From a virus, in IMG/VR virus record IMGVR_UViG_3300035661_000323, positions 1 through 24,484 of that record: a stretch of 24,484 nt of DNA; one strand, 5' to 3'. Positions 513 through 15,514 of the stretch are shown here, piece after piece (position 1 is the stretch's first letter; each line of letters opens with the position of its first letter). The notes beneath the pieces were generated by a model that saw only the letters and a program-made list of their open reading frames with translations, was not told the origin of the DNA and ran no database searches. Both the position numbers and the translations under genes were made by a program.

Positions 513-671
513 ATGCTGCTTCTCCTGTTCGCGTCGCGCCGAGCTCGTGCTCTGACGGCCGCCGACGCGGTCGCCGTCTTCCGGGTGCGCGTCGAGAAAC
601 GGGTGCTGCGCCTGCCCGCGGAGAACCGCGTGCTGGTCGTGCCGGCCGAGGACCGGGTCTACCGTGCGTAG
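513..671 (+). CDS. Small protein with PAENRV/PAEDRV tandem motif (52 aa)
   Basis: ATG at 513, seven bases after the previous stop, reads to TAG at 669-671 and gives 52 residues. The N-terminus is MLLLLFASRRARA, which is hydrophobic then basic. The C-terminal half has two imperfect units, RLPAENRVLVV and VPAEDRVYRA. I recall short phage proteins with tandem V-P-A-E-N-R-V type repeats encoded next to small Ig-like virion proteins, which is exactly the context here. That family link is from memory. The stop overlaps the GTG start of the next gene by eight bases, a typical coupling arrangement. Function is unknown; the run of leucines is too short to call a signal peptide safely. Confidence 0.55.
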   Translation: MLLLLFASRRARALTAADAVAVFRVRVEKRVLRLPAENRVLVVPAEDRVYRA

Positions 672-969
672 CTACTTTCGGATCGAGGGCGACAAGCCCA
701 CCATCGAGAAGGACTACCGCGCCTCGCGGGTCTACGGCATCGACGTGGTCGACGTCGACAGCCCGAACCAGGTCGTCGCCACGGTCAGCGCCGACGTCAC
801 CGCGGGCAGCGTGACCATCGTTGGCGCGGCTTCGTTCGACGGCACGGTGCTTCTGGTCAAGGTCGCGGGCGGTCTTGTCGGTGAGCTCGCCGCGGTCACG
901 TTCTCGTGGACAACCGCCGACGGCGACAGTGACTCGCGGACCATCTACTTCCGCATCGTTTCGAGGTAA
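664..969 (+). CDS. Small Ig-like/beta-sandwich virion protein (101 aa)
   Basis: GTG start at 664 overlaps the upstream stop by eight bases; GAGGAC lies about ten bases upstream and can serve as ribosome binding site. The 101-residue product is almost entirely predicted beta: VYGIDVVDVDSP, VVATVSADVTAGSVTIVG, TVLLVKVAGG and VTFSWTTADGDSDSRTIYFRIVSR. The last segment (T-x-x-G-D-x-D-x-R-x-x-x-F-R-I) resembles the end of small Ig-fold phage proteins that decorate virions or sit at the neck. No catalytic motif or membrane segment is present. It is probably a partner of the 52-aa protein upstream. Fold assignment is moderately likely; exact role is unknown. Confidence 0.6.
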   Translation: MRSYFRIEGDKPTIEKDYRASRVYGIDVVDVDSPNQVVATVSADVTAGSVTIVGAASFDGTVLLVKVAGGLVGELAAVTFSWTTADGDSDSRTIYFRIVSR

Positions 970-971
970 GC

Positions 972-1172
972 ATGCCCCAGATCAAACGCGGCCCCGTCAC
1001 CGTCGAGCATGACGAGGACTTCAAGAAGGACGTCACGATCACGCGGGGCGATGTCTCGATTGCGGTGCCAATGGAACTGCTGCGCGTGATCGTGGCCGAA
1101 GGTGTCCGCCGCGATCTCGTCGCCCAAGTTGCAGCCATGAAGCCGGTCGACCTTCTGCGTCGTCTTGCTTGA
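972..1172 (+). CDS. Small hypothetical protein (66 aa)
   Basis: ATG at 972, two bases after the upstream stop. The upstream stop region contains GAGG at 963-966, a good ribosome binding site at a spacing of five bases. The product begins with a charged beta-like stretch (IKRGPVTVEHDEDFKKDVTITRGD) and ends in an amphipathic helix (LLRVIVAEGVRRDLVAQVAAM, then VDLLRRLA). I do not recognise it. Position between small virion-type proteins and the large propeller-like protein suggests a structural or chaperone role, but that is inference only. Confidence 0.5.
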   Translation: MPQIKRGPVTVEHDEDFKKDVTITRGDVSIAVPMELLRVIVAEGVRRDLVAQVAAMKPVDLLRRLA

Positions 1173-1190: not shown

Positions 1191-3350
1191 GTGAGCAAGA
1201 TCCCGCAACTGCTGCGCGAGTTGGCCGACGAAGTCGAGCGTCGGGAAACGCCCGCGCCCGCGCCGGCACCCGAGCCCGCGCCCGCGCCGGCGCCCGAGCC
1301 CGCGCCGGCACCCGAGCCCGCGCCGGCGCCCGAGCCCGCGCCGGCACCCGAGCCCGCGCCCGCGCCGGCACCCGAGCCCGCGCCCGCCGCGGCTTTTGAG
1401 GTCCGCACGCAGTGGTTCAGCAAGCGTTTCGTGGTGTGGCCCGAGGCATACGCCTGGCAGTTTCCGCCCTACACGCGCGCCACACAGTCAGTTGTTGCGG
1501 CGCCTGGCGCACGCACCAGCGTGGTCTACAAGCGCGGCGACTGGAATGGCGACCACAGCGCCTGCCCGGCCCGCACCTACTTCCTGCTGCTGGATGGCGT
1601 GAAGGTCGCATCCGCCAATGTGGCGGCCGGGCAGTATTGGTGGGCGTTCGACTTCATCGCGCCAGCCGAACCCGGCTATCGGACGATGACCGTCAGCACA
1701 AGCGAAGACGAAGACTGCCCGGTCTACTTCTTCTGCGTCAGCGGTGGCACGCCCGACCTGATCCCGGTGGTCAAGTCGTCGCTGGAAATGAGCAAGGACC
1801 ACGAACATTTCGGCAAGGCCCCTGACGGGCACGAAGTCCAGCCGTGGGAGAACTTTGGCGGACCTATCCATGCTTGGACCTGGGTGCCGCCGACTGGTGT
1901 GGGGCCGGGCATGCCGACGCCGGATCGGTTCTACGCGCCGATGACCGCAGTTGTCTCCGAAGATGCTCGCCCGTGGGACCACCCCGTGGGCCACACGGCC
2001 GACATGCCGGTGGCTGGCGACATGCACATCAACGCCATGCCGCACCGCGAGCGCAACGGCGCCTGGACGACTGCGGGCGAGCAGCCGTACCACTGGCAGC
2101 AGATCAGCGGCGAGCGTGGCGACTTGCCTGCCGTGCCGCTGCGCGACGGCCCCCGTGGCGTGGGCACTTCCCCTTACACCACCCACGTCGAAGTGGGCAA
2201 GGCCACGCAGACCACCACCGACCTGACTCCGCGCCGCAACGCCTACATCTGCACCCCCTGGTCTTTCCGCCGCATGTCCAACACGGGCGAACTGACCACG
2301 CTGGCGGGTTGGCGGCACAAGATGAGCGCAGACGGCCCGACCGACGAACTGGAACTGGTGGGCGACTGGTCTGCCGTCCCCGAGGCCGAGCACGGATGGA
2401 AACTGTTGTGGGGCATGTGCTGGGACAGCCGCACGCTGGCTGCGGACACGACGCAGACGCCTATCGAAGGCCGTCCACCGCACGTTGTCGGCCCACGCGC
2501 CTACGTGGTGGACTCTCGCCGCAATTCTCTGTACCGGCTGCAGTTCCCGGCCGCATCGCACGGCCCCGCTATCGTAACCAAGCTCGCCATGATCAAGGGC
2601 ATGTGGGACTGTGTTGAAGACCCGGCCACCAACACCATGCTGGTATCCCTGCGCGACCAGCACAAGGTTGTCCGCCTGACCTTCGACGGCGAACTGCTGG
2701 AAACGGTGCTGGAACACAACTCGGCTCTGCCAGGCACCGCATCCCTCGGCTCCGACCACGTGATGTACCTGCAAGGCGCCACGCTGGATCAGGCCCAGGC
2801 ACATCCAGTGCTGGCCCCCGAGGGCCTGTACTTGCAAGACGACGAGTTGTATGTCGGCAGCAAGGTGCAGGGCCAGATCAAGGTCTTCAACCTGGCCACC
2901 AAGCGCCTGGTGCGCACCGTGCCGGTAGAGATCACCGGCAACAGCCGCTTTGTGAAGTTCGGTGTGAGCGATGGCAGCTACGCAGCGCGAGGCGCAGTCT
3001 TCTATGGCACGTTCGACGTGCAGCTTGGCGGGCGCTGGTTCGGCATCCAGCCCAACGGCCGCAAGTGGATAAGCGCGGAGAACGTGGCCTATCCGATGGA
3101 CAGCTACCAGATGTCTTTCGGCATCGGTGGCGGTCGGATGCTTTGCGGCGGATCGGATCACGGCCTGGTGCGGTGCTTTAAGGCTGCGTCGGATGCCAGG
3201 TTCAACTCAGAGTTGTACGAGCAAGGCCACAACGAATTCCGCCAGAGGCACCTGCGCCTGGCACATGGTGCGCACGGCGTGGGCCGCTTTGCAGTGCCCG
3301 ACGCAAGCCCGGCGCTGCGCTATTTCTTGGCCTTCAACCAACAGGGCTGA
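1191..3350 (+). CDS. Large virion/adsorption protein with Pro-Ala-Glu rod and probable beta-propeller (719 aa)
   Basis: GTG at 1191 follows the previous stop by 18 bases with a weak GGGCGAGA upstream. Domains in order: a charged helix at residues 1-20 (IPQLLRELADEVERRE), a PAPE-type low-complexity rod at about 21-67, a beta-rich domain at about 70-190 with four cysteines, a middle region rich in H, W and P at about 190-400, and a C-terminal region at about 440-700. The last has successive blade-like units such as AYVVDSRRNSLYRLQF, VSLRDQHKVVRLTF and LYVGSKVQGQIKVFNL, the look of an NHL/WD-type propeller. This points to a surface-exposed binding protein held away from the particle by the proline rod. 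I see no enzyme motif. The receptor-binding role is inference from context. Confidence 0.65.
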   Translation: MSKIPQLLRELADEVERRETPAPAPAPEPAPAPAPEPAPAPEPAPAPEPAPAPEPAPAPAPEPAPAAAFEVRTQWFSKRFVVWPEAYAWQFPPYTRATQSVVAAPGARTSVVYKRGDWNGDHSACPARTYFLLLDGVKVASANVAAGQYWWAFDFIAPAEPGYRTMTVSTSEDEDCPVYFFCVSGGTPDLIPVVKSSLEMSKDHEHFGKAPDGHEVQPWENFGGPIHAWTWVPPTGVGPGMPTPDRFYAPMTAVVSEDARPWDHPVGHTADMPVAGDMHINAMPHRERNGAWTTAGEQPYHWQQISGERGDLPAVPLRDGPRGVGTSPYTTHVEVGKATQTTTDLTPRRNAYICTPWSFRRMSNTGELTTLAGWRHKMSADGPTDELELVGDWSAVPEAEHGWKLLWGMCWDSRTLAADTTQTPIEGRPPHVVGPRAYVVDSRRNSLYRLQFPAASHGPAIVTKLAMIKGMWDCVEDPATNTMLVSLRDQHKVVRLTFDGELLETVLEHNSALPGTASLGSDHVMYLQGATLDQAQAHPVLAPEGLYLQDDELYVGSKVQGQIKVFNLATKRLVRTVPVEITGNSRFVKFGVSDGSYAARGAVFYGTFDVQLGGRWFGIQPNGRKWISAENVAYPMDSYQMSFGIGGGRMLCGGSDHGLVRCFKAASDARFNSELYEQGHNEFRQRHLRLAHGAHGVGRFAVPDASPALRYFLAFNQQG
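1251..1391 (+). repeat. In-frame tandem repeat encoding a PAPE rod
   Basis: About 140 bases inside the 719-aa gene are built from an 18-base unit, GCGCCGGCRCCCGAGCCC (APAPEP), with some 24-base versions carrying an extra AP pair. All lengths are multiples of three, so unit gain or loss changes rod length without breaking the frame. The encoded Pro/Ala/Glu stretch should be extended and stiff, like other PAPE linkers. The third-position A/G alternation in the GCR codon shows the units are not fully identical. Confidence 0.9.
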
Positions 3351-3379
3351 CGCGCCCGCCGGCAAAAGAGGATCACAAC

Positions 3380-3790
3380 ATGGCTACTCAAGACTCCACC
3401 GCCCAGCGCAATGCGTCGCTGACTGCGTTTGTCACGGCTCTCGGCGCCAATGCAACCTGCAAGCTCTACAGCGGCAGCAAGCCTGGTGTTGGCAACGCGG
3501 CCAGTGGCACCCTGCTGGCCACGCTGACCTTCGGCAGCACCAACATCCTGGACGCCAACGGCGGCAGCGCTGGCAGCGTGGCGAGCGGTGTGCTGACCTG
3601 CGGCGGCTACACCCAGACCCGTGCAGCCAACGGCACGCCGGGCTATGCGCGCTGGGCCACTTCTGGCGGCACTGTGGTACGCGACAGCGACGTGAGCACC
3701 AGCGGCAGCGGGAACATCATCTTCACCGGCACCGTGGACACGTCCATCCCGATCAGCGGCGTCATCACGTACACCGACGGCAACGCCTGA
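3380..3790 (+). CDS. Conserved-type phage virion protein, beta-rich (136 aa)
   Basis: ATG at 3380 with AGAGGA about ten bases upstream. The N-terminus, AQRNASLTAFVTALGANATC, is helical; the rest is Gly/Thr/Ser-rich beta structure (KLYSGSKPG, TLLATLTFGSTNI, GTPGYARWATSGGTVVRDSDV, IIFTGTVDTSIPISGVITYTDGNA). I recognise this layout (helix, then K-x-Y-S-G-x-K-P, then L-L-A-T-L-T-F, ending in an ITYTDGNA-like strand) from small uncharacterised phage proteins encoded beside fibre and spike genes, from memory only. It probably forms a small beta-sandwich adaptor or decoration protein. The hydrolase gene downstream starts eleven bases after its stop, indicating joint expression. Confidence 0.65.
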   Translation: MATQDSTAQRNASLTAFVTALGANATCKLYSGSKPGVGNAASGTLLATLTFGSTNILDANGGSAGSVASGVLTCGGYTQTRAANGTPGYARWATSGGTVVRDSDVSTSGSGNIIFTGTVDTSIPISGVITYTDGNA

Positions 3791-3800
3791 AGGCTTCGGC

Positions 3801-5207
3801 GTGGTCGCACCAGTTGCCAGCAGCTACACGGTAGCGACCGGACAGCCGATCTATGGCGGGCGCTTTGCGTCCGGGTTCGGCTCGGGTGCGGTGCTGGGCG
3901 GCATGCGTGCGGGCGGGGCGTTGGCAACGCCAGGCGCGTTCGTGGCTGGAGCTACGTTGGGAGGCGTGATCGCCAGCGGGTCGCTGCTGTCTGAGGACTT
4001 GGTTCGCCCCCCGGCAGCAGGCGTATCCAACAAGACCGCCCTCATCGGCGACAGCATCACCGAGCACTTCTTCCAGGCCACACCCATCTACTGGGGCAAC
4101 GGCCTCATCGGCGCGCCGCTGGACATCATCGCCAACAGCGGCGTCAGCGGGAGGTCCATCAATGACGTGGCCACGCAACTGTCCAACAACTACAAAGACG
4201 GGTCCGGCCACCCGGGCTTTGCGGGTCTGCCCGCGCTGGGCTGGGCCATCATGCCCTGCATCGGCACCAACGGCTGGCGCGGCGCTGGCACGGGCGCAGT
4301 GGTGGACAGCGGCACGCAATCCGACTTCCTCAGCTGCATTGCGCAGATGAAGACCTATGCCGAACACGTCGTCGTTGGTCCAATCCCGCCCGTTGTTGGC
4401 GTGACCAACGCCGATTCGCCTTGGCGCGCACTGGCCGCCTTCCAGCGGGCTGCGGTCACCGCAGACACATCAGGCCGGGTGCACCTGCTTGACGCAACCG
4501 ACGTGCTGCTGGACGGTTCGGGGGGTGGCAACCCAGCGTACTTTGAGGTTGACGGCTACCACCCCAACAAGCTGGGGGCCTATTTGTGGGGGCAGCGCTG
4601 GGCCACGCTGTTTTCCCAGTTGCTGGCGAATCAAGGCTACAGCCGCGCCCCGCTGGTCACCGATCCCGCCGACGTCTACCCTGCACAGCCGCAGTGGACG
4701 ACCAACCCAACCAACGTAGGCGGGGGTTCAACACCAACCAACGTCAGCGTGGGCCAGTACGGCAGCGGGTTCACCGCCTCGTCCTCCATCGTGGCCGCAG
4801 CCGGAGGAGACAGCAACACCGTGCCGTGGCACCGTGTGACGCCCACTGCCCTGGGCGTGGATGGGTACGCGCTGACGATCAACATGACCGGTGCGGGCCG
4901 CACGGTGACCACGAGCGACCCTTCGCAGTTCGAGCACCTGGTGGAACTGCGCTTCAACGGCCTGGTGGGGTTCAGGTTGCTGGAGTCATGGAGTCAGAAG
5001 ACTACCGGCGAGAAGATCACCCAGAAGGCGTACTTGCAACTTGATCCTGCGGGTATGACCGCAACCGCGGTGCTGCGCCTGAATTTCTACCGTTTCGGGG
5101 CAACAGCAGGCGGGCCCATCGAGCATGACATTTACCTGTGGAGCGCGGGCGCTACGTCTGGCTCCTTGGGATCTATCGACCAGCGGTGCTGGTCTGTGAG
5201 GGGTTAG
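3801..5207 (+). CDS. SGNH/GDSL hydrolase, virion-associated (468 aa)
   Basis: GTG at 3801 with GAAGG seven bases upstream. Residues 1-62 are glycine-rich with two copies of an 18-residue repeat (24-41 and 45-62). An SGNH hydrolase domain follows at about 78-280: block I is LIGDSITE with nucleophile Ser85, block II is NSGVSGRS, block III is GTNG, and block V is DGYHPN with Asp251 and His254. All elements of the Ser-Asp-His triad and oxyanion hole are present, so the enzyme looks active. The C-terminal 150 residues are a beta-rich, probably carbohydrate-binding or trimerising module. Phage SGNH enzymes of this sort commonly remove acetyl groups from surface polysaccharides. Substrate is not visible in the sequence. 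No signal peptide is seen, consistent with a virion protein. Confidence 0.85.
   Translation: MVAPVASSYTVATGQPIYGGRFASGFGSGAVLGGMRAGGALATPGAFVAGATLGGVIASGSLLSEDLVRPPAAGVSNKTALIGDSITEHFFQATPIYWGNGLIGAPLDIIANSGVSGRSINDVATQLSNNYKDGSGHPGFAGLPALGWAIMPCIGTNGWRGAGTGAVVDSGTQSDFLSCIAQMKTYAEHVVVGPIPPVVGVTNADSPWRALAAFQRAAVTADTSGRVHLLDATDVLLDGSGGGNPAYFEVDGYHPNKLGAYLWGQRWATLFSQLLANQGYSRAPLVTDPADVYPAQPQWTTNPTNVGGGSTPTNVSVGQYGSGFTASSSIVAAAGGDSNTVPWHRVTPTALGVDGYALTINMTGAGRTVTTSDPSQFEHLVELRFNGLVGFRLLESWSQKTTGEKITQKAYLQLDPAGMTATAVLRLNFYRFGATAGGPIEHDIYLWSAGATSGSLGSIDQRCWSVRG
3870..3986 (+). repeat. Two 18-residue Gly-rich repeats in the SGNH hydrolase N-terminus
   Basis: The gene encodes SGFGSGAVLGGMRAGGAL (3870-3923) and GAFVAGATLGGVIASGSL (3933-3986). 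They fit the pattern x-G/A-F-x-x-G-A-x-L-G-x-x-x-A-x-G-S/A-L also found in the next two gene products. Confidence 0.75.
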
Positions 5208-5210
5208 GCA

Positions 5211-6206
5211 GTGGCTATCGCAACCGTAGGCTCGGTGCTTTTTGCAAAGCGCAGTCTTGCCACTGCGGCGCTCTCCTATGACATCGCCACTGCGCTGAAC
5301 ATCGCTTCAGCGGGCCTTCGCATCCGGGTGCATGCCTGCATTTCGCGCTCTGAAATTGCGAACTACAGCGCCGGAACGGTCACGTGGAACGGCGTTGCGC
5401 TCACCAAGATCCCGAACGAGACCACGGGCGGTTCTGGCGAGTGGTGTGTCGGCTGGGAGCTGCGGAACCCGACGCCTGGCACCGGCAACTTGGTGATCAC
5501 CAACTCGTCGAACACCAATGACGGTACGTTCTGGGTCATCGTAGAAAGTGGCACAGACAACAGCGTGGCCGCAGTGGGCGCCGCGTTTGAGAACGGGTCA
5601 ACCACCACCGCCACGCCAGCAGCGACGGTTGTTGCTGGCGCTTCAGCCATTGTCTGCGGGTCCAGCTTCACGTATGGCGCTGCAACACCTGGCGCGCTTG
5701 TTGGCTCCCTGATCGGCGGCTTCGAGGTGTTCCGCTATGCCGCCCAGGCTATAGGCGCGGTGCCAAGCCTCGGTACATGGGCTTCCGCAAACCAGATCGC
5801 GGCGTTCACTTCGGTTGTGCAGGCCGCCGCGACGGCAGGATTCACGGGCGGCGCGACTCTTGGCGCAGTGGTCGCAGGCGGCTCGCTGCAGTCGGTCCTG
5901 GCTGGGTTCATAGGCGGCGCCACCCTCGGTGCTGTCGTCGCAGGCGGCAGCTTGGGCGCCACTCCCGGTACCTCCACCTTGGGGCCGATCCTGGTCAACG
6001 GCGTGGTGCAGGCCAACGCCGCGCTTGACTACGTGCGGATATACAGCGATGCGGGCATCCTGCTGTACGAACGCCTTGGCGGCTCACTCAACGGCAGCGG
6101 CAGCACCGCCCTCTCGACCAACGCAGCGCCCCCGGGGACGCCTGTCCGCATTGACTGGCAGCTATCCACGGGTAAGCGGCGCATGCCTCGGGTGACGATG
6201 GGATGA
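5211..6206 (+). CDS. Beta-rich virion protein with twin Gly-rich repeats (331 aa)
   Basis: GTG at 5211, three bases after the hydrolase stop, with GAGGGG upstream. Residues about 1-200 form a beta-rich domain (TVTWNGVALTKIP, GNLVITNSS, TFWVIVESGTDNSVAAVGAAF, AIVCGSSFTYG) that resembles jelly-roll domains of phage surface proteins. Two nearly identical 18-residue Gly/Ala repeats follow at residues 209-226 and 231-248. The C-terminal 80 residues are another beta unit (LDYVRIYSDAGILLYERLGGSL) ending in a basic tail, KRRMPRV. No catalytic residues are recognisable. The stop overlaps the next start as ATGA. It is probably a surface or adsorption component made together with the hydrolase; function unproven. 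Confidence 0.65.
   Translation: MAIATVGSVLFAKRSLATAALSYDIATALNIASAGLRIRVHACISRSEIANYSAGTVTWNGVALTKIPNETTGGSGEWCVGWELRNPTPGTGNLVITNSSNTNDGTFWVIVESGTDNSVAAVGAAFENGSTTTATPAATVVAGASAIVCGSSFTYGAATPGALVGSLIGGFEVFRYAAQAIGAVPSLGTWASANQIAAFTSVVQAAATAGFTGGATLGAVVAGGSLQSVLAGFIGGATLGAVVAGGSLGATPGTSTLGPILVNGVVQANAALDYVRIYSDAGILLYERLGGSLNGSGSTALSTNAAPPGTPVRIDWQLSTGKRRMPRVTMG
5835..5954 (+). repeat. Tandem 18-residue repeat, 66-base period
   Basis: AGFTGGATLGAVVAGGSL at 5835-5888 and AGFIGGATLGAVVAGGSL at 5901-5954 differ at one residue (17 of 18 identical). I count 40 of 54 bases identical, with almost all differences at synonymous positions, so this looks like an old repeat kept by selection on protein. 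Confidence 0.85.
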
Positions 6207-7231
6207 GCTACTTTTGTGACGACGTCGACGCGGCGCTCGGCGGGTACCACACGAGCGCGTACACCGGGCTCGGCCTCCGCGGCGACCAGGTGCCCGCGTC
6301 AGGCGCCGACGGCCCGTCCGTGCTGTACCCATGCCTGAGCCTGCCTGCGGACGCTGCGACCGAGGTATTCATGCAGCTTACGCGGCTGCCCACACTCGGT
6401 GTGTTGACCATCGAAGAAGATGGCAGCTTCGTCTACACCGGAGCAACTGACTACCTGGAATTTCGGTTGTGGGCCGGCGGCATCGCGTTCACCGCCGACA
6501 TCGGTTTCGGCCCAGGCATCGTTCGCGTTTCCCTCAACGTGGGGAACTCGGGGTTTGCCGGTGGCGGCCAATTGGCCGGCGTGCTGGCAGGGGGGTCGCT
6601 GACACTCAGTGGCGGCACGCCGCCGACGTTCTCGCAGCAGCCAGCCAACGCATCGCGCACCGCAGGGCAACAGGCCCAATTTCTTGCGGTCGTGCAGGGC
6701 ACGGCCCCGCTCACGGTGCAGTGGAAGAAGAACGGAACAGTGGTTGCGTCTACGGTATATCCGACGGCGCCCGCCACTGCGATCTACACGACCCCCGTCT
6801 TGACTCTCTCGGACAACGGGTCTTCGTTCGTAGCGGAGGCATCGAACGCGATCGCGACAAACGTGGCCAGTGCCTCGGCCGCATTGAGCGTCGTGTCGGC
6901 GCCCAGCCCGTCGCCGAGTCCGTCGCCCGGCCCATCGCCCGGTCCGAACCCCGGGGGAGGAAAACACGTGTCCAACAGCATCCTCGACGGGCTGTCGCTC
7001 GACTTCTTGACCGCGCGCTTGACCCAGATGCAGTTGGCCTACCTGGACCTGTCGTCCGGCGCCAAGCCGCAGGTCGTCTCGTACTCACAGGCTGACGGGT
7101 CCAAGTCCGTCAGCTACACGCAAGCTGACTTGGGCCGCCTGGCGCAAGCCATCAAAGCGGTCCAAGCGCAGATCGACGCCTTGAACGGCGTGACCTCCAA
7201 CCGCCGTCGCCCCATGCGGCCGCTGTTCTGA
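6203..7231 (+). CDS. Ig-domain virion protein, in frame with and containing the gpW connector (342 aa)
   Basis: ATG at 6203 overlaps the previous stop (ATGA). Parts in order: a beta domain at about 1-115 (FVYTGATDYLEFRLWAGGI), one Gly-rich repeat at about 116-133, an Ig-like domain at about 138-232 (PPTFSQQPANASRTAGQQAQF, VQWKKNGTVV, SSFVAEASNAIATN), a PSPSPSPGP linker at about 233-253, and a C-terminal gpW-like segment. No stop separates the Ig part from gpW. Either a true fusion is made, or the upstream protein reads through while gpW is also made from its own GTG at 6968. The Ig part alone would be a typical surface-exposed phage domain. A fusion of that domain to a neck protein is unusual, so the exact products are uncertain. 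Confidence 0.7.
   Translation: MSYFCDDVDAALGGYHTSAYTGLGLRGDQVPASGADGPSVLYPCLSLPADAATEVFMQLTRLPTLGVLTIEEDGSFVYTGATDYLEFRLWAGGIAFTADIGFGPGIVRVSLNVGNSGFAGGGQLAGVLAGGSLTLSGGTPPTFSQQPANASRTAGQQAQFLAVVQGTAPLTVQWKKNGTVVASTVYPTAPATAIYTTPVLTLSDNGSSFVAEASNAIATNVASASAALSVVSAPSPSPSPSPGPSPGPNPGGGKHVSNSILDGLSLDFLTARLTQMQLAYLDLSSGAKPQVVSYSQADGSKSVSYTQADLGRLAQAIKAVQAQIDALNGVTSNRRRPMRPLF
6548..6601 (+). repeat. Single 18-residue Gly-rich repeat in the Ig-domain protein
   Basis: SGFAGGGQLAGVLAGGSL fits the motif found twice in each of the two preceding gene products, and lies just before the Ig-like domain. Confidence 0.7.
6953..6960 (+). promoter_or_regulatory. Strong internal ribosome binding site for gpW
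   Basis: GGGGGAGG lies seven bases upstream of an in-frame GTG at 6968, inside the longer ORF. It also encodes part of the PGGG end of the proline linker. It decides the likely gpW start. Confidence 0.75.
6968..7231 (+). CDS. W: Head-tail connector, lambda gpW-like (87 aa from internal GTG)
   Basis: Lambda gpW (68 aa) closes the filled head below the portal and prepares it for the tail. The segment here has the gpW pattern: helix 1 (FLTARLTQMQLAYLDLSSG), a beta hairpin (VVSYSQADGSKSVSYTQ), helix 2 (DLGRLAQAIKAVQAQID) and a basic tail (RRRPMRPLF), matching the gpW order helix-hairpin-helix-R-R-R tail. It directly precedes the portal gene, as in lambda. The start is chosen at GTG 6968 because GGGGGAGG lies seven bases upstream and the resulting length fits the family. 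It is in frame with the Ig-domain ORF that begins at 6203, so a fused form may also exist. Family call is strong; start is likely rather than certain. Confidence 0.8.
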   Translation: MSNSILDGLSLDFLTARLTQMQLAYLDLSSGAKPQVVSYSQADGSKSVSYTQADLGRLAQAIKAVQAQIDALNGVTSNRRRPMRPLF

Positions 7232-7232
7232 T

Positions 7233-8936
7233 ATGAACCAACCCCTCTCCATCGTGGATTCGAGCGGTCGGCCTTTCAGCGCGCCGGCTACCCGTGGCCG
7301 CGTGCGCGCAGACGGGTTCTACGGCCCGAACGGCAGCACCACGATCCCCGGGTATGGCAGCAGCGCCTACCCCTATTCCGCGTCGAGCCCGGTCTCGCAA
7401 GAGATGGGCGACTGGTACCCGGTCATCCGGTCGCCCGACTCGGAAATCAACATCCTGCGCGACCGCATGGTCGCTCGGTCGCGGGACCTCACGCGCAACA
7501 GCGGTTGGGCGTCCGGCGGGATTTCGCGCATCCTCGACAACATGGTCGGCTCGCGCTTGCGCCTGTCGGCCGCGCCGGACTACCGCGCGCTGGCCTACAA
7601 GTTCAAGAAGTCGACGTTCGACGCGAAGTGGGCCAACGAATTTCAGCGCGCCGCTGAAGCCCTGTGGCGTTCGTACACCGAGAGCACGGGCCGCTGGGCC
7701 GACGTGCAGCGCCAGTTGACGATGGGGCAGATGTTCCGCCTGGCCGCGCGCCACAAGCTGGTCGACGGCGAAGGTCTTGCGCTGGCCTACTGGTTGCCGG
7801 ATCGCGTGGGGCAGGGCGGGGCGGAATACGCCACGTCGTTCCTGCTGATGGACCCGGACCGACTGAGCAACCCGTACCAGGCGCCCGACACGAAGAACCG
7901 CCGCGGCGGCGTGGAGATCGACGACGCAGGCATGCCGATCGGCGTGCATCTGCGCAAGGCACAGCAGAACGACTGGTACAACGCCATGGAGGCGAACACC
8001 TGGGAGTTCGTGCCCTACGAGGACGAGGACGGTTGGCGCCGCGTCATCCACGACTTCGACCCCGATCGCGCGGGCCAGCACCGCGGTATCGGCGTGTTCA
8101 CGAGCGTGCTCGAACACATGAAGATGCTGGGCCGGTACTACGGCGTCGAGCTCCAAGCCGCGACCCTGGCCGCATCGTTGGGCACGTATGTCACCAGCCC
8201 GTACGACGAGGAGATGGTGCAGGACGCCATCGCCGGTGCCGACCAGTTGAACAAGTACCAGGAGATCCGCGCCGAGTGGGCGAAGGAACGGCCGGCGATG
8301 TTCAACGGCGTCCGCATGCCGACGCTGGCCCCGGGCGAATCCATCGAAACCGTGCACGGCGCCCACCCGCACTCGAATTTCCCCGACTTCGCGCACGAGA
8401 TGCTGTGCGTGTTCGCGGCGGCCACCGGCGTTTCGGTGGAGCAAGTCACCCAGGATTGGTCCCGCACGAACTACAGCAGCGCGCGTGCCGCGCTGATGGA
8501 GACGTGGAAGACCCTCGTGCGCCGGCGCGACGACTTCGCAACGAACTTCGCCACGCCTATCTATTCCCTATGGCTGAATGAGGCGATGGACCGAGGCGAA
8601 TTGCCCCTGCCCGCCGGCGCACCTTCTTTCGTCGAGGCGGCGTCGTCGTTTTCGCGCTGCAAGTGGATCGGCCCGGGCCGCGGCTACGTGGACGGCGTGA
8701 AGGAACCCCAGGGTGCGCAACTGCGCATGAACATGGGCGTGTCGACGCTGGAAAACGAAGCGGCCGAACAGGGCTTCGACTGGGAAGAAAACCTCGACCA
8801 GCGCCAACTGGAAATGAAGGCGTTCGAGGAACGCGGCCTGCCGGCGCCGGATTGGTTCGGCGTCCAGCCCGAGCAAGGCACCGAATCCGGCGAACGGTCG
8901 CACGACCCCGACTCGCCCAACTACCGCAGCGCCTGA
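7233..8936 (+). CDS. B: Portal protein, lambda gpB family (567 aa)
   Basis: The dodecameric portal sits at one capsid vertex, takes DNA from the terminase and connects to the neck. ATG at 7233 follows the gpW stop by one base. The lambda-type pattern is clear near the N-terminus: ILRDRMVARSRDLTRNSGWASGGISRILDNMVGSRLRLS, which corresponds to the family's R-x-R-x-x-x-R-N-x-x-x-x-x-x-I-x-x-x-x-x-x-V-G-x-G element. Further family-like stretches are WRSYTES, FRLAARHKLVDGEGLALAYWLP, WEFVPYEDEDGWRRVIHDFDPDRAGQHRGIGVF and ATGVSVEQVTQDWSRTNYSSARAALMETWKT. Length is close to lambda gpB (about 530). The C-terminus is acidic and polar, without anomalies. The protease gene starts two bases after the stop. 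Confidence 0.93.
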   Translation: MNQPLSIVDSSGRPFSAPATRGRVRADGFYGPNGSTTIPGYGSSAYPYSASSPVSQEMGDWYPVIRSPDSEINILRDRMVARSRDLTRNSGWASGGISRILDNMVGSRLRLSAAPDYRALAYKFKKSTFDAKWANEFQRAAEALWRSYTESTGRWADVQRQLTMGQMFRLAARHKLVDGEGLALAYWLPDRVGQGGAEYATSFLLMDPDRLSNPYQAPDTKNRRGGVEIDDAGMPIGVHLRKAQQNDWYNAMEANTWEFVPYEDEDGWRRVIHDFDPDRAGQHRGIGVFTSVLEHMKMLGRYYGVELQAATLAASLGTYVTSPYDEEMVQDAIAGADQLNKYQEIRAEWAKERPAMFNGVRMPTLAPGESIETVHGAHPHSNFPDFAHEMLCVFAAATGVSVEQVTQDWSRTNYSSARAALMETWKTLVRRRDDFATNFATPIYSLWLNEAMDRGELPLPAGAPSFVEAASSFSRCKWIGPGRGYVDGVKEPQGAQLRMNMGVSTLENEAAEQGFDWEENLDQRQLEMKAFEERGLPAPDWFGVQPEQGTESGERSHDPDSPNYRSA

Positions 8937-13725: not shown

Positions 13726-15124
13726 ATGAACTTCAAGAACATTCCCTCTGCGATTCGCACTCCGCTGTTCTACGCGGAAGTCGACAACAGCCGCGCGAAC
13801 ACCGCGTTGGCCATCCAGCGTACGCTGATCATCGGCCAGATCGTCAGTGGCGGTACCGGCACTCCCAACGTACCCGTGATCAGTCAAGGCGTGGCCGATG
13901 CGGCGGCCGTGGGCGGCCCGAACTCGCTGCTGGCCCTGATGACCGCGGCTTACCGAAACGCCGACTCGTTCGGCGAAGTCTGGTACCTGCCGCTTGCAGA
14001 CGATGGTTCCGCGGTCGCTGCCACGGGTACGGTCGTGTTTTCGGCGGCTGCGACGGCCAACGGCACGTTCTACCTCTACATCGCCAACAAGCGGTACGCA
14101 CTGCCCGTGCTCACCACGCAGACGACGGCGCAACTGGCGACTGCCTTGGCTGCGCTGATCAACGCCGACCCCGGCTGCCCCGTTGGCGTACGCAGGCGGC
14201 GTGCAGGCCGGCGAAGCGATCCCGGCCGGGCTTGCCTGGACCGTGACCGCCATGGCCAGCGGCGCCACCCCGCCCAGCTTGACCGCGGGCCTGGCCGCCC
14301 TGGGCGACACGTCGTTCGACTTCATCGTCTGCCCGTACACCGATAGCACATCCCTTGACGCGCTGAAGCTGTTCCTCGACGACGCTACGGGCCGCTGGTC
14401 CTACGCGAAGTCGCTGTATGGCCACGTGTTCGGCACCAAGCAGGGCAGCCTGGGCACGCTGACCTCGTTCGGCGCCGCGCGCAACAACCAGCACGAATCG
14501 GTGCTGGGCATCGGTACCGGCCCGGCCGCCGCCTGGCAGATCACCGCGGCCTACGTGGGTTCCGCTGCGACCAGTCTGCGCAACGACCCGGCCCTGCCGC
14601 TGCAGACCCTGACGCTGCCCGGCATCCTGCCGCCGTTGGCGTCGCAACGCTTCACGCTGTCCGAGCGCAACTCGTTGCTCTACAGCGGCGTCAGCACGGC
14701 AACCGTGGACGACGACGGCACGGTGCGGATCGAGAACCTGATCACCACGTACCAAAAGAACGCGTTCGGCGCCCCGGACAACAGCTACTTGCAGGTCGAG
14801 ACGCTGTTCACGCTGATGTTCGTGCTGCGCTTCATGAAGACCGCGATCACCAGCAAGTACGCGCGCACCAAGCTCGCCGCCGACGGCACGCGCTTCGGCC
14901 CCGGCGCCAACATCGTGACGCCGAACATGATCCGCGCGGAAGTCATCGCGCAGTACCGGCAACTCGAATCGCTGGGCCTGGTGCAGAACGGCGACGCGTT
15001 CAAGGAGGGGCTGATCGTCGAGCAGAACGCATCGAACCCGAACCGCGTGGACGTCCTGTGGCCGGGCACGCTCGTCGACCAACTGCGGATCTTCGCCCTC
15101 CTCGCGCAATTCCGCCTCATCTGA
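13726..15124 (+). pseudogene. L: Contractile tail sheath protein, Mu gpL-like, broken by deletion/frameshift
   Basis: The sheath contracts to drive the tube through the cell envelope. ATG at 13726 with CGGAG upstream. The first frame runs to about residue 152 with sheath features (FKNIPSAIRTPLFYAEVDNSRA, VFSAAATANGTFYLYIANKRYALPV, ATALAALINADPGCPV), then becomes arginine-rich nonsense and stops at 14346. The frame one base on resumes at about 14184 (LAYAGGVQAGEAIPAGLAWTVTAMA, FDFIVCPYTD) and runs to 15124. Together the two parts give about 465 residues against about 495 for Mu gpL as I recall. The missing part is the strand region usually between the NAD-x-x-L-P-V and R-L-x-Y elements. This suggests loss of roughly 80-90 bases plus a frameshift. 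No slippery site is evident. It may be real decay or an assembly error. Confidence 0.8.
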
Positions 15125-15139
15125 CCCAGGAGCACCCAC

Positions 15140-15514
15140 ATGGCAATCACCGACAAGGCCCTCGCGGGCATTGCGTACCTCTCCGTCGACGGCAAGCGGT
15201 ACATGCTTGCGGGCGACCTGTCCTACAGCGTGTCGCGTCGCAAGCGCGAAACGCTCATCGGCCAGGACGAAGTGCACGGGTTCAGCGAGACGCCGCACGC
15301 CGGGTTCATCCAGGCGAGCGTGCGTGACGCGGGCAGCCTGAGCCTGGCCGACATCAACGCCATGACGAACGTCACCGTCATGCTGGAACTGACCAACGGC
15401 AAGATGGTCGTCGGCCGCAATATGTGGACGACCGACCCGCAGGAGGTCGAGACGATGGAGGCGAAGTTCACCGTGCGGTGGGAAGGCGTCTCGATCGAGG
15501 AGATCGGGGCATGA
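15140..15514 (+). CDS. M: Tail tube protein, Mu gpM-like (124 aa)
   Basis: Inner tube of the contractile tail. ATG at 15140 with AGGAG upstream. Mu gpM has about the same length. The N-terminus, DKALAGIAYLSVDGKRYMLAGDLSYSVSRRKRETLIGQD, followed by VHGFSETPHAGFIQASVRDAG, is the usual layout of this family (long strand pair, basic patch, G-x-x-x-V-H-G-x-x-E). The rest, MTNVTVMLELTNGKMVVGRNMWTTDPQEVETMEAKFTVRWEG, completes a beta barrel. It follows the sheath gene, as in Mu. The stop overlaps the next start (ATGA). Confidence 0.9.
   Translation: MAITDKALAGIAYLSVDGKRYMLAGDLSYSVSRRKRETLIGQDEVHGFSETPHAGFIQASVRDAGSLSLADINAMTNVTVMLELTNGKMVVGRNMWTTDPQEVETMEAKFTVRWEGVSIEEIGA

Follow-up and report, generated by a model that had tools for sequence, protein, structure and literature searches.

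Lambda gpW, of the gpW/Ad1 family (PF02831, phrog_75), forms a 12-mer in which residues 1-3 are unresolved and helix 1 begins at residue 4 and extends to the hairpin. The hairpins form a barrel, with the hairpin residue Arg32 clamping the DNA, and the C-terminal arm attaches to the wing of the portal (PMC10721106). Neck adaptors with added beta-sandwich domains are Milano gp14, T7 gp11 and T4 gp13 (PMC10491603), and neck appendages have been described as the wac whiskers of T4 and the gp40 spikes of XM1 (PMC10491603) and as the gp30/gp31 whiskers of Sf14 (PMC11821841). The SPP1 major tail protein exists in two forms, gp17.1 and gp17.1*, which arise in a 3:1 ratio through a frameshift (Fraser et al., 2006, as cited in PMC8718954), and in a sheathed tail Ig decorations on the tube would clash with the sheath (PMC8718954). 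Phage endolysins are commonly made as double products from one frame (PMC9430671).

In this work we looked at a stretch of viral DNA of 24,484 nucleotides (IMG/VR record IMGVR_UViG_3300035661_000323; hereafter the window), in which one ORF encodes, in this order, a D domain, an I-set Ig domain, a Pro/Ser/Gly linker and gpW (Table 1). The gpW part is like the gpW/Ad1 family in its sequence, its helix-hairpin-helix fold and its position directly before a lambda-type portal gene. It is unlike the other loci, where gpW stands alone, in that its frame stays open upstream into 255 more codons of a cassette protein, with the short form still encoded. The SPP1 pair, with its Ig-like/FN3 extensions, is similar in that a structural ring protein exists in a plain and an Ig-extended form; yet in SPP1, as described in the source cited above, a ribosomal frameshift places the extension at the C-terminus of the tail-tube protein, whereas in the window it is N-terminal, on a neck adaptor and combined with an in-frame second start. 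Both parts of the window ORF lie in one frame, which does not fit a frameshift of the type described by Fraser et al., and the window phage is sheathed, so that tube decorations of the SPP1 type would clash with its sheath. The two-polypeptide endolysins share with this ORF an in-frame internal start and a full-length plus a C-terminal product with a single stop, but they are lysis enzymes rather than virion connectors (PMC9430671). Milano gp14, T7 gp11 and T4 gp13 also have an extra beta domain on a 12-mer adaptor (PMC10491603), although there the domain is built into the fold of every subunit, with neither a linker nor a second start. The appendages formed by T4 wac, XM1 gp40 and Sf14 gp30/gp31 point outward from the neck, which is the location and role that we propose for the long form in the window, but they are separate proteins on the collar or adaptor, and no homology of the window proteins to them was found. 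Precedent therefore exists for each element (two-form Ig rings, in-frame doubles, beta-domain adaptors and neck whiskers), and their combination, free gpW together with a gpW N-terminally extended by a cassette protein through an in-frame second start, was not found in the literature searched.

Table 1. Features of the window around the gpW ORF, with the basis of each assignment.
Feature	Position	Strand	Basis
Stand-alone gp77 fibre-tail adaptor domain	664..969	+	PF23148, E 4.6e-9
Small gene, left edge of the insertion	972..1172	+	Homologs in the terminase-gpW gap of relatives
Inserted gene: short N-terminus MSKIPQLLRELADEVERRE, PAPAPEP linker of ~50 residues, large ectodomain	1191..3350	+	Directly after the small conserved gene
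Cassette gene A, virion structural protein	3380..3790	+	phrog_3758, E 1.6e-13; profile from L250-L252, E 2.9e-28
Cassette gene B, N-terminal tag and GDSL/SGNH hydrolase	3801..5207	+	PF13472, E 3e-8; tag profile E 0.0045, marginal
Cassette gene C, variable, fibre-like	5211..6206	+	Position; repeats common with D
D-Ig-linker-gpW ORF, 342 codons without interruption	6203-7231	+	Window translation
D domain (aa 1-114), conserved, N-terminal in the last gene of the mobile A-B-C-D cassette	6203..6544	+	HMM matches elsewhere
Gly-rich repeat stretch SGFAGGGQLAGVLAGGSL	6545..6622	+	Common to the upstream B and C proteins; repeat alignment
I-set/Ig-like domain	6623..6895	+	PF07679; phmmer
Pro/Ser/Gly linker SAPSPSPSPSPGPSPGPNPGGGKH	6896-6967	+	Translation; low pLDDT
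Shine-Dalgarno site of gpW GGGGGAGG (gggggagg)	6953-6960	+	Within linker codons
gpW head-tail adaptor, 87 aa, own GTG start	6968..7231	+	PF02831, phrog_75, predicted fold
Portal protein, lambda family	7233..8936	+	PF05136, E 1.6e-90

The Ig part of the ORF matches the I-set family at aa 141-184 with 25.1 bits against a cut-off of 23.7 (Pfam), and titin Ig domains with an E-value of 8e-19 (phmmer). Structure prediction gave weak models for this region (aa 140-235, pLDDT mostly below 60), and the models of both the D and the Ig domain are of poor quality, too weak for a fold search. The pLDDT falls below 50 for residues 192-245, a segment that covers most of the linker, and the linker is disordered in the model. 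The Pro/Ser/Gly pattern of the linker persists right to the start of gpW, with SPGPNPGGGKHVSNSILDG as the junction sequence, and the two other reading frames are not domain-like there. The gpW stop codon is a TGA at 7229-7231, one base before the ATG of the portal gene.

For gpW itself, PF02831 matches at aa 272-339 (Pfam, cut-off 22.5 bits); the full ORF scores 32 bits and the short form 36.6 bits. The PHROG family phrog_75, 'head-tail adaptor Ad1', matches them with E-values of 5e-13 and 2.5e-14, respectively. The gpW part is also where the predicted structure is confident (pLDDT mostly 67-93), with a helix at 266-284, hairpin strands at 291-306 and a helix at 310-328. The best Foldseek match is the phage Chi neck (prob 0.87), and lambda gpW is matched with a TMt of 0.54; the E-values are not significant because most of the model is poor. 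A PDB sequence search with gpW gave no adaptor among its matches. The search that matched the titin Ig domains also gave a weak match to '9occ neck whiskers gp24' (E 0.022). An earlier note on this DNA had described one uninterrupted ORF running from an Ig-like surface domain through a linker into gpW next to the portal gene. This layout holds, with the I-set and gpW parts both above their Pfam cut-offs, while the description of the N-terminal part has to be narrowed: the I-set domain is there, but aa ~1-114 are a separate conserved domain, D, with phage homologs. Based on sequence comparison, the region ahead of gpW is the last gene of a mobile virion cassette rather than a lone Ig surface domain.

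Related loci were gathered via the portal and via gpW itself, which gave 246 loci with 200 distinct contexts and 192 distinct gpW sequences. The gpW gene is present and stand-alone in 246 of the 246, as the earlier note had assumed for gpW in general, and a gpW fusion of the window type is absent from all of them. Usually the gene for the terminase large subunit is followed by gpW and then by the portal gene, in some loci with a small gene ahead of gpW, and the median distance from terminase to gpW is 32 bp. Homologs of the small gene lie between the terminase large subunit and gpW in L002, L010, L016, L036, L090, L092, L096 and others, and in close relatives the small gene is adjacent to gpW; in the window the two are 5.8 kb apart. 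By comparison of gene order, 5.8 kb has been inserted before gpW in the window. The first large gene of this insertion (1191..3350) gave no significant family match in Pfam or PHROG.

A parallel case is found in L108, where positions 2458-8738 hold an independent insertion of 6.3 kb with fibre-like genes, again between terminase and gpW, that carries repeats of its own (SLSQGxxxLSGxGxV type). The last inserted gene there overlaps the gpW start by 4 bp (ATGA), and the two are thus separate genes. A stop codon between the Ig part and gpW in close relatives had been named beforehand as evidence against a fusion; such a stop is seen in L108 and in every D homolog, none of which is a close relative of the junction, and none of the loci examined has a closely related cassette-gpW junction. 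Long open frames upstream of gpW at other GC-rich loci (up to 169 codons; 401 aa in L270) were considered as extensions and rejected, since they are rich in arginine and represent the terminase or another upstream gene read out of frame. In 369 genomes of the class, PF02831 gave eight matches in seven genomes, none of them with a true extension. Neither gpW nor the D-Ig part, each used by itself as a single-sequence query, gave a match in scans of viral contigs, and tblastn against 50,697 phages gave only two gpW matches, both stand-alone, and no match for A, B, C or the cassette DNA. A prophage gpW in L007 (7731-7992, on a contig shared with L149) has an in-frame TAG after ~28 codons and is therefore probably defective.

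The cassette A-B-C-D is found in ~17 other phages at varying genome positions, and is made up of a phrog_3758-like protein (A), a tagged protein with a variable enzyme domain (B), a variable fibre-like protein (C) and D as the last gene. With the N-terminal 140 aa as query, relatives were detected in three bacterial genomes, and their alignment then found 14 viral loci; the D HMM matches L002, L177, L178, L179 and L250-L263. The window itself scores E 1e-47, but it is among the seeds of the profile; the best relative, an independent homolog, is 56% identical over aa 12-138. The D domain belongs to the last gene of the series in nearly all D loci, and the window has both this domain and this position after A, B and C. 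By their profiles, A and D are recognized in the window with certainty, and the profile of A listed in Table 1 was built without the window. The tag of gene B reads MVAPxxxSYTVAxGxxIxGGR in the window and MVAPxxxSYTVASGxxIxGGR as the cassette form, and a C-terminal profile failed to detect gene C of the window. The domain behind the B tag is exchangeable, a hydrolase or another domain, for example GDSL in the window and an esterase in L177. The neighbourhoods of phrog_3758 in other genomes are mostly unrelated to the D cassette, and one bacterial genome (G186) holds five identical-scoring copies of a phrog_3758 protein in five places (e.g. L183), which suggests a multicopy prophage or element.

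The positions of the cassette differ between phages. In L177 it lies between the major capsid gene and an HK97-type adaptor, in L178 among Mu-like head genes, in L179 it adjoins tape-measure/tail genes, and in L002, whose portal is 62% identical to that of the window, it is upstream of the terminase. No case of D fused to a connector was found among the other cassette phages. In its homologs, D is either stand-alone or has the gp77 fibre-tail adaptor domain at its C-terminus (L002, L263 and weakly L261), and gp77 is the next gene after D in L254 and L262. In the window this domain (PF23148) is absent from the ORF and is instead a separate upstream gene. Given these forms of D in the relatives, replacement of the anchor by gpW describes the fusion better than addition of an Ig domain to gpW. 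The repeats in the D tail are Gly-rich or polar, phage-specific and common with C and partly with B (window, L002, L177, L250, L252 and others). In seven of nine phages they best match the C protein of their own phage, which suggests that B, C and D co-assemble or work together, or that they exchange sequence by gene conversion.

The start of gpW in the window can be recognized within the long frame. The GTG at 6968-6970 is in frame, exactly 255 codons after 6203, and follows the Shine-Dalgarno site after 7 nt, which agrees with the GGAGG seven bases before an in-frame GTG that had been reported earlier. It coincides with the gpW start in relatives (MxxRTSILDG...; MSN-SILDG in the window, MRRT-SILDG in L090 and MSCRP-SILDG in L091). 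Such a site is unusual for the window: among 420 in-frame ATG, GTG and TTG codons within 20 window genes, only two, 6968 and 15455, have GGAGG, AGGAG or GAGGT at 5-10 nt. The start at 15455 has a strong Shine-Dalgarno AGGAGGT at 7 nt and is close to the end of ORF 15140-15514. The D start at 6203 has a weak ribosome-binding site (RBS) and overlaps the stop of C (ATGA). Two products from one frame, as the earlier note had proposed, are plausible, since the ancestral start of gpW has a strong internal RBS and GTG and the linker runs exactly up to this start.

The mechanism that best fits these data, to which we give a probability of about 0.5, is that the cassette landed before gpW and that the phage makes free gpW together with a minor D-Ig-linker-gpW form that tethers an appendage to the neck. 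The A-B-C-D cassette would have inserted directly before gpW, and D would have been joined in frame to it via the Ig domain and the flexible Pro/Ser linker, so that gpW becomes the C-terminal anchor of D. Translation of D by coupling to C, with the ATGA overlap and the weak RBS, would give the long form in minor amounts, and the strong internal GGAGG/GTG at 6968 would give the bulk of free gpW. A few long-form subunits may then enter the 12-subunit gpW ring and tether D, and via D the B/C adhesin-hydrolase, outside the neck. A 255-residue N-terminal extension might not be tolerated at the twelve ring positions. We infer the expression, product ratio, incorporation, neck location and adhesin function from this arrangement. 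By analogy with lambda gpW, in which residues 1-3 are unresolved, and from the geometry of helix 1, the N-terminus of gpW would lie at the outer side and be able to carry an extension. A sheath gene (PF04984) among the tail genes indicates a contractile-tail phage, and the neck is a reasonable site for the appendage because Ig decorations on the tube would clash with the sheath. A more tentative proposal, which we regard as less likely than not, is that gpW acts as the C-terminal part by which a multi-protein surface appendage is anchored to the virion, in a mixed 12-mer ring that carries a few D-Ig, the B hydrolase and the C fibre.

One alternative is that the sequence is real but the fusion is without function: D lost its stop codon by accident, gpW is translated from its own RBS, and rare read-through is neutral or its product is discarded. 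The very strong gpW RBS has been kept while that of D is weak, the fusion is unique among ~200 contexts, and stops are rare at 66% GC, so that an open frame of 24 codons is not improbable per se. However, the open stretch is an organised linker, unlike random sequence, and stops precisely at the gpW start, which is sensible only as a link joining two domains; a C-terminal anchor is also to be expected in the window D, as D ends in the gp77 anchoring module in some relatives. Based on this we consider a fusion without a role unlikely.

Another hypothesis is a sequence artefact, in which too many or too few bases in the G5/A4 run at 6953-6964, or a miscalled base, hide D and gpW genes that are truly separate and overlapping or abutting. 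The fusion is known from a single contig, and the sheath gene is split near 14180 over two overlapping frames, 13726-14346 and 14183-15124, with PF04984 only in the second part. This split is a probable frameshift or sequencing indel, so the contig contains at least one likely indel, real or technical. D is stand-alone in all homologs, and the short overlap before gpW in L108 shows how two separate genes may be arranged at this place. Yet a shifted frame in the run would end D at 7008 or 7093, with an overlap of 41 or 126 nt with gpW, and would leave a long Pro/Ser linker without a domain to follow it, whereas the linker as read is in frame and clean up to the RBS. We therefore think an artefact improbable as well. 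That only the fusion is made, with gpW as a permanent C-terminal domain and an appendage on all 12 ring subunits as in the Milano and T7 beta-sandwich neck proteins, agrees with the single frame and with the known adaptors that have permanent extra domains, but is very improbable given an internal RBS and GTG at the ancestral gpW start that are stronger than nearly all annotated starts of the window.

If the free and tethered forms of gpW are both made, the window would represent a simple genetic route to neck decoration, with a set sub-stoichiometric amount of the appendage, in a contractile-tail phage. As D is fused to gpW, the fusion is also a direct clue to the virion site, at the head-tail junction, of the widespread and uncharacterised A-B-C-D cassette. 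Because D has different anchors at its C-terminus, gp77 in relatives and gpW in the window, the idea of an exchangeable anchor can be tested.
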